A stretch of DNA of 64,000 nt from the NCBI RefSeq assembly GCF_007748115.1, contig NZ_CP036289.1:6324001-6388000 (forward strand), read 5' to 3'. Below, in pieces: positions 14,503 through 23,636 of the stretch. The DNA comes from Bremerella volcania. GTDB taxonomy: Bacteria > Planctomycetota > Planctomycetia > Pirellulales > Pirellulaceae. Under the pieces are notes generated by a model. That model had not been told where the DNA came from, ran no database searches, and was given only the letters and a program-made list of their open reading frames with translations. Made by a program: the position numbers and the translations under genes. Within the stretch, counting starts at the first letter, position 1. The number at the start of each line of letters is the position of its first letter.

Positions 14503-17500
14503 ATGCCGGTTTCCGATATTGAAGTCAAAGGGGCCCGCGAACACAATCTGCGCGAGGTCACGCTGACGCTTCCTCGCAATAAACTGATTTGCTTGACGGG
14601 CGTGAGCGGTAGCGGGAAAAGCTCGCTGGCGTTCGATACCGTCTATGCGGAAGGGCAGCGGCGGTACGTCGAGAGCCTGTCCAGCTACGCGCGGCAATTC
14701 ATGGGGCAGATGCCCAAGCCCGACGTCGACTACATCGGCGGCTTGACCCCCAGCATTTCGATTTCGCAGAAGACGACCAGCAACAACCCACGTAGTACGG
14801 TCGGCACGATCACCGAAATCTACGACTATCTCCGCGTGATCTTCTCGCGCGTGGGGCAGGGCTTTTGTAGTGAATGTGGCAAGAAGCTCACCGCCCAGAC
14901 GCGGGAACAAATCCTCGAGCGGATTCTCGGCCAGGAAGAAGGGACCTCGTTCGCCGTGCTTGCTCCGCTGGTTCGCGGCCAGAAGGGGGAGTTTAAGGAC
15001 CTGTTCGTCGACCTGTTAAAGCAGGGCTTCGTCCGGGCTCGGGTCGACGGTGAGGTCATCCAGCTCAACGACGAGCTGCAGCTCGATCGCCAGATGCGGC
15101 ACAACATCGAATTGGTCGTCGATCGTTTGAGCATCAAAGAGGGGGTCCGCGGACGCCTGGCCGAAGCGGTCGAGCTGGCCCTGAAGATGGGAGAAGGCAG
15201 CCTGATCATCGCCCCGCGCGAAGACGAAACGCCCGAAGGGCAGGAAGCGGCCCCGAAAAAGAAACGGGCCAAAAGCAAGCGCAGCAAGACGGCCGTGGCT
15301 GGCGACATGATGTTCTCGGTCGACTACGCCTGCGTCGACTGTGGAATATCTTACAGTCCGCCGACGCCGCAGCTGTTCAGCTTCAACTCGCCACAGGGGA
15401 TGTGCCCGACGTGCGACGGCCTGGGCAAGGTCTACACGTTCGATCCTGAACTGCTGGTCCCCGACGTGACCTTGTCGTTCAAGCAAGGGGCGATCGAACT
15501 GCTAGGCAAGTGGAAAGAGCTGGGCCGCTGGAAGCGTCATATCTATCAAGGTATGGCCGACACGATGGAGCGGAAGTACGACCTGGGCAAAGGGGCCATC
15601 CTGGAAACGGCCTGGCGCGACATGCCCCAGGAGCACCAAGACTACCTGCTGTGGGGCACCGGAGACGAGCACATCACGTTCACCTGGCGCGGCGGCAACA
15701 GCCCCCAGATGTACGGTGGCACCTACGGTGGCATTGTGCCTGACCTGCTGGAAAAGTATCGCAATACCAACTCGAAGCCGCAGCAGCGGCAGCTTGAAAA
15801 GTACATGGCCACGGTCATCTGCCCACAGTGCCATGGCGATCGCCTGAACCCTCAGGCCCGTAGCGTGAAGGTCACCACCGCCAGCAAGGCGTTCGGCAAG
15901 GACGGCTCGCGGACGCTGCCGGAGATCTGCCAGCTGTCGATTCAACAGGCGGCCGATTTCTTCGGAGAGCTGGAACTCGACAGCCTTTCGCAGAAGATCG
16001 CCGAAGAAGCAGTCAAGGAAGTGCGAGGACGACTCGGCTTCCTGCAGAACGTGGGGCTCGAATACCTCACGCTCGACCGAACGGCTCCGACCCTCAGCGG
16101 TGGTGAATCGCAGCGTATACGCCTGGCAGGGCAGATCGGCTGCGGCCTGGTCGGCGTGACGTATATCCTCGACGAACCGTCGATCGGTCTCCACCCGCGC
16201 GATAACGACCGCCTGCTGGCAACCTTGAACGACCTGCGCGACCTGGGCAACACGGTCCTGGTGGTCGAGCACGACGAAGACACGATGCGCGTCGCCGACC
16301 ATATCATCGACTTCGGTCCCGGGGCCGGAGTGCGCGGCGGGTACGTCGTCGCCCAAGGCTCGGCCAAGCAGTTGGAAGCGGTCGAGGAAAGCGTCACCGG
16401 GCGGTTCCTGTCCGGCAAAGACAAAATCGAAATCCCCACGTCGCGCCGTCCTTTAGGCGAGAAGAAGCTCCGCATCGTCGGTGCCGCGCAGAACAACCTG
16501 AAGAACATCACCGCCGAGATCCCGCTAGGGGGATTCGTCTGCATCACGGGGGCCAGTGGTAGCGGCAAGAGTTCGCTCATTAACGGCATCCTGGTCGAAG
16601 CGCTCCGCCGCGATTTGAACGGCGGCCTGGGCGAGCCAGGCGAGCACGAGCGGATCGAAGGGATCGAGCATCTCGACAAGATGATCGCGATCGATCAAAG
16701 CCCGATCGGCCGCACGCCGCGCAGCAACCCGGCGACCTACATCAAGGTGTTCGACGAAATCCGCGACCTGTTCGCCCAACTGCCCGAGTCTCGCAAGCGA
16801 GGCTACAAGCCAGGCCGCTTCAGCTTCAACGTCGACGGCGGCCGCTGCAGTGCCTGCGAAGGGAACGGGGCCAACAAGCTGGAGATGGACTTCCTGGCCG
16901 ACATCTGGGTCACCTGCCCGGTGTGCGAAGGACACCGCTTCAACCGCGAAACGCTCGAAATCTTGTTCAAAGACAAGTCGATCGCCGACATCTTAGAGAT
17001 GGACGTGCAGGACGCTTTGAAGACGTTCGAGAACGTCCCCAAGATCGCCCAGAAGCTGCAAACGCTGCACGACGTCGGGCTCGATTACATCAAGCTCGGG
17101 CAGCCTTCGCCGACCCTTTCTGGGGGTGAAGCCCAGCGTATCAAGCTCGCCAAAGAGCTTTCCAAACGCAGCACCGGCAAGACGCTGTACCTGTTGGACG
17201 AACCCACCACCGGGCTCCACTTCGCCGACACGAAGATGCTGCTGAAAGTGCTGCACGACTTCGCCAGCGCCGGCAACACGGTGCTGGTGGTCGAACATAA
17301 CCTGGACGTGATCAAGACGGCCGACTGGGTTGTCGATCTCGGTCCTGAAGGGGGCATCAACGGCGGCACGATCGTCGCCGAAGGAACGCCGGAAGAAGTC
17401 GCCGCGGTCGAAGCTTCGTACACCGGCCAGGCACTGCAGCCTCTCTTGAGGGGTGAAACGAGCCGGGCCGTGGCCGAGATCAAACGCGCGGCGAAAGAGT

Positions 17501-20500
17501 CGCAGCAGACCGCCAAGGTTCAGGCCAAGCGGATCGACGTGCGTGGTGCCAAGATGCACAACCTGAAGGACGTCAGCGTCGGCATCGACCGCGACAAGAT
17601 GACCGTCTTCTGCGGCCCCAGCGGTAGCGGCAAAAGCTCGCTGGCGATGGATACGATCTACGCCGAGGGGCAGCGCCGCTACGTCGAAAGCCTGAGCGCG
17701 TACGCGCGGCAGTTCGTCGGCCAGATGCAGAAGCCGAAGGTCGACCACATCGAGGGACTTTCGCCGGCGATCGCCATCGAGCAGAAGAACCTCGGCAAGT
17801 CGCCCCGTTCGACGGTCGGTACCGTCACCGAGATTTACGACTACCTGCGCGTGCTGATGAGCCGCCTGGGCGAGCCCAATTGCCCCGACTGCGACGTCCC
17901 AATTAAAACGCAAACGTCGACGCAGATCACCGATAAGGTCTTGCAGGAAGAGGAGGGGACCAAGCTGTTCCTGCTCGCCCCGCGGCACCTCGATACGGGG
18001 CAACAATACTCCGACCTATGGGAAGAGCTGAAGGCCGCCGGTTATCAGCGCGTTCGCGTCGACGGCGTGGTGCACACGATCGACAAGATGCCGAAGATCG
18101 ATCGCCGCCGCAAGCATGACGTGGAAGTGGTGGTCGACCGAATCGTCGTGCGTCAGGATGCCCGGCCGCGCATTGCCGACAGCGTCGAGATCGCGCTGAG
18201 CCAGTCCGGCGGCGTGTTAGTGCTCGCCTACGCGGAAGACGACGTCCCCGAAGCCCACTGGCGAACCAAGCGTCTGAGCCAGAAGCTTTCGTGCGAGTCT
18301 TGCGATCGCAGCTTCGATCCACTGTCGCCGCATAACTTCTCGTTCAACAGTTACCTCGGCTGGTGCCCCGACTGCGAAGGGCTCGGCACGCAGACCGGTG
18401 CCGATCCAACAGCACTGCTGAGCGATCCGAAGCGCAGCCTGGCTGAAGGTGCGCTGCGGTTGTGGCCCGACCTCAAGTCGCCGACCGCGATGCGCATGCT
18501 CGAAGCGATTTGCGAGAAGAACAAGATTCCGATCGACGTTCCGTTTGAACAACTTGGCGCGCGTCAGCGGCGAATCATTCTGCACGGCACCGGCGACACG
18601 GTCTACGACATCTACACCGATGGGAAGAAGAAAGACAAGATCGAGTTCCGCTTCCAGTTCAAGGGGTTGTATCCAGCGCTGGAAGATGCCTCGCGGCTGA
18701 GTCCTTCGTTCCGCGGTCAGCTGGAATCGCTGGTGGCGGAAGTGGAATGCACCACCTGCGATGGCTCGCGTTTGCGGGACGACGCCTCGGCGGTGCGTTT
18801 CCGGAAGAAGTCGATGCGCGACATCACCAGCATGCCGCTGGCCGAACTGCTGGAGTTCATCCGCTCGGCCAAATTGAAGAAGCGCGAACAGAAGATCGCC
18901 GGCGAGCTGCTCCGCGAGATCGACAGCCGCGTGCAGTTTTTGCTGGACGTGGGGCTCGAGTACCTGACTCTCCGCCGCACGGCCCCCACGCTTTCGGCCG
19001 GGGAAGCCCAGCGTATTCGCCTGGCCAGCCAGCTGGGCAGCGGCCTGTGCGGCGTGCTGTACGTGCTGGACGAACCGACGATTGGCCTCCACCCGCGCGA
19101 CAACCGTCGACTGCTCAAAGCATTGCATCGGCTGCGTGACCTGGGCAATACGCTGCTGGTGGTCGAACATGATCAGGAAGTGATTGAGGGGAGCGATCGG
19201 TTGATCGACTTTGGCCCTCAGGCAGGGCGTCACGGCGGAACGATCGTGGCCGAAGGAACGCCCAAGCAGATCGCCAAAGCCTCTGGCTCGGTAACCGGTC
19301 CATACATCTCGGGCAAACAGGCGATCTACGCGCCGAGCAATCGCCGTATGATGTCGATCGCGAACAACTCCGACGAAGACGTGATCGCCGATTTCAGCAG
19401 CCCTTCGGGCGAATGGCTTGAGATCGTCGGGGCCAGCCACCGCAACCTGCGGAACGTGAACGTCTCGATTCCGCTGGGTGCTTTGGTTGCCATTGGCGGC
19501 CCGAGCGGTAGCGGCAAGAGCACGCTCGTTCAAGACATCTTGTACAACACGCTGGCCCGCCGCCTGCATCGCGCTTCGACCATTCCCGGCGCGCACGATG
19601 CCCTGCGCGGCATGGAGAACATCAACAAGGTCATCCGCGTCGATCAGCAGCCGATCGGCAACAGCCCCAGCTCGAATCCGGCGACCTATACCGGCGTGTT
19701 CGACTTGATTCGCGACCTGTTCGCTCAGCTGCCTGACGCCAAGGTCCGCGGCTACACGGCGCGTCGCTTCAGCTTCAACGTCGAAGGGGGACGCTGCGAA
19801 GACTGCCAAGGCATGGGGCAGAAATGCATCGAGATGCACTTCCTGCCCGACGTGTGGGTCACCTGCGAAACGTGCAACGGGCTGCGTTACAACGAAGAGA
19901 CGCTCGCGGTCAAATTCCACGGAAAGTCGATTTCCGAAGTGCTCGAAATGTCGTGTGGCCAGGCCGTGCAGCTGTTCGAGAACATCCCCAAGATTCGCCG
20001 CACGCTGCAGACGCTATGCGACGTGGGTCTCGATTACGTCACGCTCGGCCAGTCGGCCCCGACCCTTTCCGGTGGCGAAGCCCAACGCGTGAAGCTCGCT
20101 TCGGAACTGGCTCGGCCTGATACGGGCCGCACGCTGTACCTTTTGGACGAACCTTCGACCGGGCTGCACTTCGAGGACCTGAAGAAGTTGCTGGACGTGT
20201 TCCATCGGCTGGTCGACCTGGGCAATACGGTGATCGTGATCGAACACAATCTCGACATCTTGAAGCAGGCCGACTGGGTCATCGAGATGGGTCCCGAAGC
20301 CGGCCAGGCGGGCGGCCAGGTCGTGACGGTCGGTACGCCGGAAGATATCGTCGCGTACTCGAAGTCGTTCCTCAAGCTGGCCAAGAAGCAGAAGAGCGAA
20401 GAGTCGACCCTGACCGACGAACGAGGCATGACCTGGCTGCGCAGTCATACTGGCGAAGCGCTGGGCCCCGTGCTGGAAGCGGCCCCGCGCGAAGAGCGTC

Positions 20501-21525
20501 CGCAGTACGATCCGCACGCGGCGGAGCAGCAGCGCGAAGGAGACCTCGACATCGACGACGTGGGTGCCCAAATCCAGATGCCTTGGGAACTCGACGGACG
20601 ACGTTGGCACACGAAGGATCGCGTCGGACGCGACGGGCAGCCGTGTAACTGGGACGGCAAGATCCTGGCCGAGGTGGTCGATCGCATTCAAGCTTCCGAC
20701 TCGTTCAGCGACCCCAACTGGAACTCGCGGACGATCGTCGAGATCGCGGCGAAGAAGAAATCGGACGGCTGGTTCTTCCACGGCATCACCGGCGAAAGCT
20801 GGCTGGTGAAGCTGAAGTTCCGCGTGATGAAGGGGACGTTCAACAAGTACGAACTACCCCAGGAACTCAACTTGCCAACCCTCAACCAGATGGACGACCT
20901 GCCGATCTACAGCAACGATCCGCGGGTGAAGGTCAAAAACCTGCGTGGTCCGTTCCAGGAAGTCGAGATCAGGGCCCACAGCTGGCAAGAGATCAACAAG
21001 CCGGAGTTCTGGAAGTTCGTCGACGACGCGATCATCGGCTTTCAGAAGTATGAGTCGACCATCAGCCAGGACGTCGAAAGCCACATGCCGTGGAAGAAGC
21101 TCGGCGAGAAGTGGCACCTGTCGCGCAAGGGCTTCCCGCCGGGCAAAAAGGTAGCGTGGGACCAGTCGGTGCTGGAAGAGGTGATCGAGCTGCTGAAAGA
21201 AGTCGCTCCGCAAGGCGAGATCCTGTGGAACAACCAGATGCTGATCAACATGATGATCCCCGGCAAGCGGACCGCGTGGGCCGTGGTGACGACCAAGAAG
21301 CCGGAACATGTTCGGCTGGAACTGAAGACCTCTAAAGCGTCCACGACGCAGGGCAGAATCGCCGGATTAGGCCACGAACCGGACGTCGATCAGTCGCGCA
21401 GCGGCGAAGAGATCGTGCGGCTTCACTTCCGCCATGATGCGGACCTGCAAAAGGGTGATTTGCGAGCGTTTTTGAAGGAGAGCTTCGAAGGCGAATCTTC
21501 CTCTGGTCAGCGATCGCTCCTCTAA
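14503..21525 (+). CDS. uvrA: Tandem UvrA fusion (two UvrA modules plus novel C-terminal region)
   Basis: A 2340-residue excinuclease ABC subunit A, the damage-recognition ATPase of nucleotide excision repair. Ordinary UvrA is about 940 residues; here two complete UvrA copies are joined in frame. Walker A sites begin near residues 33, 683, 1038 and 1666. Signature motifs are LSGGE at 531, 872 and 1855, but LSAGE at 1497. Zinc Cys pairs are intact in both halves: 277/280-301/304, 782/785-805/808, 1264/1267-1288/1291, 1765/1768-1788/1791. After about residue 1960 comes a 380-residue extension with a duplicated Trp-rich domain (starting MPW at 2026 and 2195). As UvrA works as a dimer, the fusion could form an intramolecular dimer. 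Large fused UvrA proteins occur in planctomycetes as far as I recall. Confidence 0.95.
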   Translation: MPVSDIEVKGAREHNLREVTLTLPRNKLICLTGVSGSGKSSLAFDTVYAEGQRRYVESLSSYARQFMGQMPKPDVDYIGGLTPSISISQKTTSNNPRSTVGTITEIYDYLRVIFSRVGQGFCSECGKKLTAQTREQILERILGQEEGTSFAVLAPLVRGQKGEFKDLFVDLLKQGFVRARVDGEVIQLNDELQLDRQMRHNIELVVDRLSIKEGVRGRLAEAVELALKMGEGSLIIAPREDETPEGQEAAPKKKRAKSKRSKTAVAGDMMFSVDYACVDCGISYSPPTPQLFSFNSPQGMCPTCDGLGKVYTFDPELLVPDVTLSFKQGAIELLGKWKELGRWKRHIYQGMADTMERKYDLGKGAILETAWRDMPQEHQDYLLWGTGDEHITFTWRGGNSPQMYGGTYGGIVPDLLEKYRNTNSKPQQRQLEKYMATVICPQCHGDRLNPQARSVKVTTASKAFGKDGSRTLPEICQLSIQQAADFFGELELDSLSQKIAEEAVKEVRGRLGFLQNVGLEYLTLDRTAPTLSGGESQRIRLAGQIGCGLVGVTYILDEPSIGLHPRDNDRLLATLNDLRDLGNTVLVVEHDEDTMRVADHIIDFGPGAGVRGGYVVAQGSAKQLEAVEESVTGRFLSGKDKIEIPTSRRPLGEKKLRIVGAAQNNLKNITAEIPLGGFVCITGASGSGKSSLINGILVEALRRDLNGGLGEPGEHERIEGIEHLDKMIAIDQSPIGRTPRSNPATYIKVFDEIRDLFAQLPESRKRGYKPGRFSFNVDGGRCSACEGNGANKLEMDFLADIWVTCPVCEGHRFNRETLEILFKDKSIADILEMDVQDALKTFENVPKIAQKLQTLHDVGLDYIKLGQPSPTLSGGEAQRIKLAKELSKRSTGKTLYLLDEPTTGLHFADTKMLLKVLHDFASAGNTVLVVEHNLDVIKTADWVVDLGPEGGINGGTIVAEGTPEEVAAVEASYTGQALQPLLRGETSRAVAEIKRAAKESQQTAKVQAKRIDVRGAKMHNLKDVSVGIDRDKMTVFCGPSGSGKSSLAMDTIYAEGQRRYVESLSAYARQFVGQMQKPKVDHIEGLSPAIAIEQKNLGKSPRSTVGTVTEIYDYLRVLMSRLGEPNCPDCDVPIKTQTSTQITDKVLQEEEGTKLFLLAPRHLDTGQQYSDLWEELKAAGYQRVRVDGVVHTIDKMPKIDRRRKHDVEVVVDRIVVRQDARPRIADSVEIALSQSGGVLVLAYAEDDVPEAHWRTKRLSQKLSCESCDRSFDPLSPHNFSFNSYLGWCPDCEGLGTQTGADPTALLSDPKRSLAEGALRLWPDLKSPTAMRMLEAICEKNKIPIDVPFEQLGARQRRIILHGTGDTVYDIYTDGKKKDKIEFRFQFKGLYPALEDASRLSPSFRGQLESLVAEVECTTCDGSRLRDDASAVRFRKKSMRDITSMPLAELLEFIRSAKLKKREQKIAGELLREIDSRVQFLLDVGLEYLTLRRTAPTLSAGEAQRIRLASQLGSGLCGVLYVLDEPTIGLHPRDNRRLLKALHRLRDLGNTLLVVEHDQEVIEGSDRLIDFGPQAGRHGGTIVAEGTPKQIAKASGSVTGPYISGKQAIYAPSNRRMMSIANNSDEDVIADFSSPSGEWLEIVGASHRNLRNVNVSIPLGALVAIGGPSGSGKSTLVQDILYNTLARRLHRASTIPGAHDALRGMENINKVIRVDQQPIGNSPSSNPATYTGVFDLIRDLFAQLPDAKVRGYTARRFSFNVEGGRCEDCQGMGQKCIEMHFLPDVWVTCETCNGLRYNEETLAVKFHGKSISEVLEMSCGQAVQLFENIPKIRRTLQTLCDVGLDYVTLGQSAPTLSGGEAQRVKLASELARPDTGRTLYLLDEPSTGLHFEDLKKLLDVFHRLVDLGNTVIVIEHNLDILKQADWVIEMGPEAGQAGGQVVTVGTPEDIVAYSKSFLKLAKKQKSEESTLTDERGMTWLRSHTGEALGPVLEAAPREERPQYDPHAAEQQREGDLDIDDVGAQIQMPWELDGRRWHTKDRVGRDGQPCNWDGKILAEVVDRIQASDSFSDPNWNSRTIVEIAAKKKSDGWFFHGITGESWLVKLKFRVMKGTFNKYELPQELNLPTLNQMDDLPIYSNDPRVKVKNLRGPFQEVEIRAHSWQEINKPEFWKFVDDAIIGFQKYESTISQDVESHMPWKKLGEKWHLSRKGFPPGKKVAWDQSVLEEVIELLKEVAPQGEILWNNQMLINMMIPGKRTAWAVVTTKKPEHVRLELKTSKASTTQGRIAGLGHEPDVDQSRSGEEIVRLHFRHDADLQKGDLRAFLKESFEGESSSGQRSLL

Positions 21526-22595: not shown

Positions 22596-23636
22596 TTAAA
22601 CGGCTTGCTCTAAAACGCGATCCGCTTGGGGCGTTTCGCGGCGTAGTTCGTGGTGCAGCCAGCGAACCCAACGATTGGCGACCGCCGCGACCACCACGTT
22701 CTTCGGTTTGCCTCGACTCAGCATGCCGGTCGCTAGCTTGGTCCATGGGCCACTTGTTTGTCGAATCAGTCGATGCCCCAATTCGATCAACACAGTCCGC
22801 AGGTCGGGGTTGCCGGCCTTGATCAGTCCTGCATCTGCCTGACGTTGTCCACTGCTGGCATTGCGAGGCGTCACTCCGCAGAACCGAGCCAGTTGCTTGC
22901 CACGCGTGAAGCGATCGAAGCGACCGATCTCGGCGCGAAGCGTAACCGCCGTCACCAGCCCCACGCCGGGCATTGTCAGAAGCTTCGCAACGACCGGATC
23001 GTCTTCGACCGTGTGCCTGATCTTGGCTTCCACAGCACGGATGCGACGCCCCAGGGAAGTCAATTCCTCGAGGTGGTCTTCCACAAGCCACCGGTCGCTT
23101 GGTGCCAAGTCGTCTGTTTCCTGCAGCCATGTGAGCCACTTCTTCGTCCAAGGCGTGCCGCCCGGTGAAGGCACCCGGTTTTCTCGTAAAAGCCCACGAA
23201 TCCGCAGTTTAACGTCCCGCCGCCGCCGCACCAATTGAGCCCGATGGCGGACCAGGCGTCGCAGTTGCCGCGTTGCTTCGGGGGCCAGCCACACGCTCGG
23301 CAGGTAATTGACGCGAGCCAGATCGGCCAGCAGTTGGGCATCGGCCAGGTCGGTTTTGTCAGGCGAACGCTTCATCCGTGCGACGTAGCCTGGATGAGCC
23401 AGCTGCACCGGCAAATTGCGATGGGTGACCAGTTCCTCGGCCAGATCGGCCGCCCCGCAACAGGCCTCGATCGCCACGCGTTGCGGCGTGCCATGCTGCA
23501 ACGCAAAGCGGGCAATCAAATCAGCCTCATTCCGCACCGACCGATTCGCCAGCGTCCGCCCTTCCGAATCCAAAACACACACCTGAACCAAATCCTGATG
23601 GTAATCAAGCCCGACGAAAGTTGGTAAACTAGGCAT
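22596..23636 (-). CDS. IS110 family transposase (DEDD)
   Basis: A 346-residue recombinase. The N-terminal RuvC-like DEDD domain has VGLDYHQD (Asp11), VAIEACCG (Glu57) and KTDLADA (Asp96, Asp99). A coiled-coil linker follows, then the Transposase_20 domain with TMPGVGLVTAVTLRAEIG, FCGVTPRNASSGQR (the presumed catalytic serine region) and KAGNPDLRTVLIELG. It looks full-length, so the element may still be active. IS110 enzymes act on DNA with a guide RNA made by the same element. The gene ends 237 bases from the left inverted repeat. Confidence 0.93.
   Translation of the reverse strand: MPSLPTFVGLDYHQDLVQVCVLDSEGRTLANRSVRNEADLIARFALQHGTPQRVAIEACCGAADLAEELVTHRNLPVQLAHPGYVARMKRSPDKTDLADAQLLADLARVNYLPSVWLAPEATRQLRRLVRHRAQLVRRRRDVKLRIRGLLRENRVPSPGGTPWTKKWLTWLQETDDLAPSDRWLVEDHLEELTSLGRRIRAVEAKIRHTVEDDPVVAKLLTMPGVGLVTAVTLRAEIGRFDRFTRGKQLARFCGVTPRNASSGQRQADAGLIKAGNPDLRTVLIELGHRLIRQTSGPWTKLATGMLSRGKPKNVVVAAVANRWVRWLHHELRRETPQADRVLEQAV

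Follow-up and report, generated by a model that had tools for sequence, protein, structure and literature searches.

A duplicated C-terminal domain in a planctomycete tandem UvrA and its relatives on NucS-like proteins

The tandem UvrA and its extension

What is the domain that follows the second UvrA half in the tandem UvrA of Bremerella volcania, and what could it do there? The window (the whole stretch of 64,000 nucleotides analysed here) contains at 14503..21525 (+) an open reading frame of 2340 aa, in which two full UvrA halves are followed by a C-terminal extension. The protein is of the tandem type: Pfam finds PF17760 and PF17755 in two stretches each and ABC_tran in 8 stretches, PRK00349 (2647 bits) and TIGR00630 each match in two stretches, and the DNA-binding and interaction domains of UvrA are each present twice in the chain. 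The PRK00635 kind of tandem UvrA (1809 aa), which we take to be chlamydial, likewise joins two UvrA halves in one chain, and its 1809 positions are probably too few to include the extension. The same layout is found in the tandem UvrA of Planctomycetes, where the uvrA gene fusion has already been published, and the section of that paper on the fusion does not mention a C-terminal domain (PMC8567305). A second UvrA frame of the same genome, located outside the window (C1:5343027), encodes a single chain of 981 aa without the extension. Just downstream of the tandem gene, a 346-aa ORF at 22596-23636 of the window (-) reads like a transposase, presumably of the IS110 type.

The canonical UvrA tail is recognisable in the sequence as SHTGEALGPVL (residues 1981-1991; 20443..20475, +), and tails of this kind terminate extension-free UvrA copies (e.g. 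L125, L127). A sequence-only reading of the locus had counted about 380 extra residues; the canonical tail falls inside the interval it had noted, and the extension actually comprises about 349 residues (1992-2340). Alignment assigns residues 1992-2025 (20476..20577, +) to a linker, while profiles and conserved columns delimit two modules, both in frame within the 2340-aa ORF: M1 (residues 2026-2194; 20578..21084, +), which starts with MPWELDGRRWHT at residue 2026 (nt 20578), and M2 (residues 2195-2340; 21085..21522, +), which starts with MPWKKLGEKWHL at residue 2195 (nt 21085). The conserved columns define a Trp-His box at the head of each module, with the pattern PW-x3-G-x2-WH-x8-G-x4-W in M1 (residues 2026-2050; 20578..20652, +) and its counterpart in M2 at residues 2195-2219 (21085..21159, +).

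The two modules are clearly alike at the profile level. Profiles of 79 sequences align at E 2e-10, whereas 10 column shuffles reach no lower than 0.011 and reversal of the profile gives 0.46; with more widely sampled profiles, built from 60 and 56 sequences, E falls to 8.9e-22 over 146 columns, the shuffle control applying to the 79-sequence profiles only. Within the window's own genome, M1 is also matched by the M2 profile (6.5e-11). The columns conserved to at least 80% in both modules are P5, W6, G10, W13, H14, G23, W28, L33, W51, V57 and W68, where W51 corresponds to the Trp-Asn that had been noticed by eye in the sequence-only reading. Conservation of the box is nearly complete, with W13, H14 and W28 each retained in 117 of 119 M1 sequences, H14 and W28 in 120/120 M2 sequences and W13 in 119/120. 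The suspected tandem duplication is thus real, its profile match lying far beyond the shuffles. By these comparisons the extension consists of two tandem copies of a single small accessory domain, of about 145-170 residues per copy, each probably built of the Trp-His box and then a core, which in M2 appears to resemble DUF5655. We rejected the possibility that the extension arose as a copy of some other region of UvrA, the best E being 0.016 in 36 comparisons with UvrA windows.

The domain is covered by no curated model of Pfam, NCBIfam or PHROG, and the PDB likewise holds no convincing match, profile searches with the modules returning chance-level matches only, which bears out the earlier impression of an unrecognised domain. 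Pfam offered no family for three extension fragments, and DUF5655 was absent among the families of the 79 homologues at E<=1. No PDDEXK family was found by Pfam in the fragments or the 79 members, and the extension gives no sign of being itself a NucS/PDDEXK nuclease; a single HepT-like match at E 0.077 among these members was taken as chance. Matches to the Pfam family HTH_32, seen in 39 of the 79 members at E<=1 (best 4.7e-5) and spanning M1 residues 2031-2082 in the window protein, could suggest that the modules descend from a helix-turn-helix domain of the transposase type. We consider this descent very improbable, given that the window protein scores 16.9 bits against a gathering cut-off of 33.7 and that the match spans only about 50 of the 169 M1 residues. 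The accessible portions of the literature searched on the domain and its relatives contain no description of it; to that extent the domain is undescribed, the UvrA fusion in Planctomycetes being already known (PMC8567305).

Distribution, constraint and separability of the modules

The extension is a common feature of tandem UvrA in the class. It is matched at E<=1 by 56 of 60 relatives, 55 of them at 1.2e-11 or better and one (0.746) at chance level. Genome alignment searches, in which the best 5 to 10 first-look candidates were scored per genome, place it (E<=0.001) in 267 of 297 genomes drawn from the class, in 239 of the 261 better genomes and in 140 of the 154 genera. Thirty of the 297 genomes have no match to the extension; nine of the 20 misses listed belong to family f8, and this family has no genome among the 267 positive ones. 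In a phylum-wide draw 42 of 392 genomes match, 40 of them members of the class and 2 from family f70, which lies outside the class. The UvrA-type module pair gave no tblastn match in plasmids or phages.

The extension is under purifying selection. Median dN/dS among nine congeners is 0.046 for M1 and 0.065 for M2, compared with 0.032 for the last ABC domain and 0.092 for the linker region (residues 1960-2022), the weakest constraint of the four segments. These ratios are to be read with synonymous sites near saturation (median dS 1.0-1.5) and with 2 (M1) and 7 (M2) of the 36 pairs dropped because their ratio could not be computed.

Could the modules act within the UvrA chain itself? A scan of named genomes matched a sequence pattern in 236 stretches, 190 of which encode a relative, and the best 80 were kept. 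A UvrA ABC motif shares the frame of the extension in 71 of these best 80 loci, the other 9 frames being open at the locus edge and beginning in the UvrA tail or its linker. All 80 loci have their two PW boxes spaced 166-170 residues apart, and in 62 of them the spacing is 169. Such regularity, together with the lack of the extension in the single-chain 981-aa UvrA, is what an intramolecular regulator would predict, in which the modules would lie against the last ABC domain or link the two UvrA halves and thereby tune ATPase activity or dimer geometry. We nevertheless find this regulation unlikely: there are tandem UvrAs free of the extension, the module occurs in another protein context (the NucS-like proteins described below), and where a tandem uvrA is split the extension is kept on its second part.

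The forms with a single module were surveyed in 30 genomes, mostly picked for weak scores, and in ten regions picked likewise, a sample from which no frequency can be derived. An M1-type module stands alone in many of the surveyed genomes (e.g. L115, L217, L228, L229), an M2-type module stands alone in others (e.g. L111, L112, L113, L119, L237, L239, L241), and some tandem UvrAs have neither (L121, L125, L126), which shows that M1 and M2 can exist independently of each other. In family f21, four genomes (G083, G607, G251, G531) have the tandem uvrA naturally split at one and the same place, which, judged by position, is the zinc-binding loop of the second UvrA half (loci L273:9742-13476 with L265:5700-8966, L271, L267 and L268). 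The distance separating the two parts is about 12 kb in G083 and about 0.7 kb in G607, while in G251 and G531 the first part is not found within about 25 kb upstream of the second; in these splits the extension remains on the second part. Three further genomes, G164, G146 and G445 (L266, L269, L270), have extension frames that begin at about UvrA residues 1630, 1610 and 610, respectively, and in G029 (L272) the tandem frame is broken between the halves near a contig end, by decay or assembly error.

Relatives on NucS-like proteins and in DUF5655

Does the module occur outside UvrA? A search of 392 genomes with the M2 profile returned one match assignable to another protein (E 3.8e-5), a 373-aa frame of G262 (locus L299), a planctomycete of another class; the remaining matches include one in G125 at 0.013, probably chance, and one in G419, in a 382-aa frame close to a contig edge. 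The G262 protein is NucS-like in its N-terminal part, with NucS_C at E 5.9e-4 (below its cut-off) and NCBIfam NucS at 1e-7 (far below), and its last 140 residues correspond to one module (7.7e-11 with the M1 HMM and 3e-7 with the M2 HMM, in single-sequence searches). With the whole protein as a tblastn query, 363 plasmid records match, five of which, all haloarchaeal, cover at least 80% of the query, and its C-terminal region alone finds exactly those five. The plasmids carrying this NucS-like relative come from Halobacterium, Haladaptatus, Halocatena and Natronomonas, and the box PW..DG..WH is present in G262 and in all four plasmid proteins read, of the five. A profile of the nuclease modules, made from four of the five plasmid proteins and L299, aligns with M2 at E 2.8e-14 and with M1 at 1e-10, the lowest value in 40 shuffles, tested on M2, being 0.029; the N-domain of the nucleases matches neither M1 nor M2 in profile comparison (0.071/0.62). 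Single nuclease modules score modestly, the best HMM E per protein ranging from 7.7e-5 to 0.014 when scaled to a million sequences. For the nuclease-type relative, two scans of viral contigs found none, and the C-terminal region of L299 found itself only among 75 genomes of its class.

Judged by these profiles, the M1/M2 module and the last domain of NucS-like PDDEXK proteins are homologous from end to end; in those proteins the module is C-terminal as in UvrA, but present in single copy and joined to a NucS-like domain in place of UvrA. The observation made in the sequence-only reading was correct and fell short of the full extent: the domain exists, is duplicated, occurs widely across the class, and extends beyond planctomycetes and UvrA. 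Its suggestion of something planctomycete-specific does not fit a module that also ends NucS-like proteins of haloarchaeal plasmids.

A phylogeny of 53 modules combined the 5 nuclease modules with a selection from the dereplicated M1 (119) and M2 (120) rows. One branch (95/90) sets apart the 23 M1 rows and a second one (99/95) the 5 nuclease modules, while the 25 M2 rows require two changes, since two rows of family f70 stray; M2 is in one piece in 55% of 200 bootstrap trees, in an analysis for which the program warned that long branches meet at the M2 region and that the bootstrap had not settled. The simplest reading of this tree would be a single duplication into M1 and M2 that predated the diversification of the class.

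The NucS-like proteins carry in their N-domain a D..D..E-L-K motif, which we take to be the PDDEXK motif. The N-domains of three of them are matched by PADLOC PDC-S11 models (1.5e-26 to 1.2e-46), although these matches span only the first 200 or so residues; PDC stands for 'PADLOC defence candidate', described in the cited source as an unvalidated class (PMC12813430). One plasmid gene adjoins a KwaB-like gene with a BREX-5 pglX nearby, a second lies near a helicase gene and a TIR-domain gene, and the other two regions contain a GIY-YIG nuclease gene and a TnpB gene instead. Five other NucS_C-type proteins have different C-terminal parts: DUF5655 in L193 and L185, DUF4268 in L305, and parts not named by Pfam at E 0.1 in L306 and L307. 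The NucS_C-type protein with DUF4268 (L305:1920-3068) is encoded between hsdS and hsdR in a type I restriction operon of a Vibrio plasmid.

Is the module related to any described family? M2 aligns colinearly with 18 PF18899 (DUF5655) rows at E 8.5e-6 over 94 columns, the aligned core being residues about 2223-2329 (21169..21489, +). Controls with closely related profiles gave minima of 0.021 in 40 shuffles and 0.016 in the 36 UvrA comparisons. The score varies with the rows included: subsets gave 1.3e-4, 0.14 (4 DUF5655 rows alone) and 3.2e-5, the addition of DUF1801-like rows gave 2.3e-6, and narrower sampling of M2 gave 0.0012. DUF5655 was picked from a remembered pattern and three families were compared (DUF5655, YjbR and DUF1801-like rows), for which reason we treat the match as moderate evidence; corrected for a blind scan of all Pfam, its E would be borderline, about 0.2. 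M2 is likely a remote relative of DUF5655. A described counterpart is thereby found, remotely, for M2 and not for M1, which shows no direct match (E 0.29); the nuclease module gives 0.0018 over 17 columns only. DUF5655 resembles the module in being C-terminal in NucS-like and GmrSD proteins and differs in that the PF18899 rows align without the Trp-His box, that the extension gives no Pfam-level match and that M1 is not matched directly.

By its Pfam name DUF5655 has no known function, it is not named in the literature searched, and its profile found nothing below E 0.06 in the PDB. Among 8 DUF5655 proteins scanned, two are of the GmrSD type (L186, L187), L193 and L185 carry NucS_C (above and below the cut-off, respectively), and four carry DUF4287 (three plus OmdA) without a DNA-enzyme domain. 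The DUF4287/OmdA proteins indicate that DUF5655 is not confined to DNA enzymes, which weakens its association with DNA. The set of PF18899 hits including DUF1801-like rows matches YjbR (PF04237) at E 3.9e-8, and at 3.2e-4 without these rows; the YjbR/MmcQ fold is described in the cited source as 'double-wing' DNA-binding and CyaY-like (PMC7641849). As a direct relative of the modules YjbR/MmcQ was rejected (E 0.1 for M2, 0.013 over 8 columns for M1). In E. coli K-12 (L278:4659-7872) yjbR, a remote relative of the DUF5655/DUF1801 group by these matches, and uvrA are convergent genes whose ends are separated by 34 bases, an adjacency possibly due to chance.

A possible DNA-contacting role

What could be the role of such a module? 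We propose that the extension may be a mobile DNA-contacting accessory domain common to candidate defence nucleases and, in duplicated form, to UvrA, a reading whose chances we put barely short of even. DNA contact is our leading guess, which we infer by association, because on NucS-like proteins the module stands where other members have a different C-terminal domain, because it is found again on UvrA, and because DNA is the expected common substrate of both. The reading is favoured by the homology, the selection, the class-wide presence, the sharing with NucS-like proteins, the occurrence of DUF5655 on two GmrSD-type proteins and the basic character of M2 (median pI 9.1, 79 sequences). Against it stand M1, which is neutral (median pI 6.98, 79 sequences) and has no DUF5655 match, the row-dependent score of M2 with DUF5655, the modest scores of single nuclease modules, the absence of the extension from 30 of the 297 genomes of the class, and the consideration that a C-terminal accessory domain may equally bind protein.

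The main rival is protein docking, in which the Trp-rich modules would bring a binding partner to UvrA, such as UvrB, Mfd, SSB, RNA polymerase or a nucleoid protein. The many conserved aromatics and the near-neutral M1 are compatible with docking, lineages with M1 or M2 only would suit loss of a partner, and some DUF5655 relatives belong to proteins that lack a DNA-enzyme domain; it is on account of the DUF4287-type DUF5655 proteins that DNA contact is placed slightly below an even chance and docking is raised. UvrB, which the sequence-only reading had considered as a partner, gains no support for a special role: it was found once in 23 of 24 genomes examined, with or without the extension, the sole miss being a genome without it, so that its presence does not track the extension. 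The presence of the module on archaeal plasmid NucS-like proteins also means that its original ligand was unlikely to be a planctomycete repair partner. Taken together, docking seems to us possible but rather doubtful.

If the module does contact DNA, it would in both settings be a unit that holds or reads DNA, tethered behind a catalytic or sensing machine. With two copies, the pseudo-dimer formed by the single UvrA chain could touch DNA at additional points beyond the lesion cleft, and these contacts might raise residence time or select DNA context prior to UvrB loading. UvrC offers a comparison, its C-terminal (HhH)2 domain being described in the cited source as adding DNA binding behind the nuclease domains (PMC7835731). 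A more far-reaching version, which we regard as improbable, would have an unnamed DNA-reading domain move between anti-invader nucleases and a damage sensor, the duplicate making UvrA, in one planctomycete class, a reader of lesions and also of a particular DNA state, be it base modification, an unusual structure or bound DNA.

UvrA belongs to the highly conserved repair proteins, and in most sampled genomes of one class a duplicated domain is added to it. The link to NucS-like proteins of the PDC-S11 type ties excision repair to candidate defence enzymes through a common part, and the modules, at about 145 residues, may serve as small test proteins for finding the ligand that they bind.
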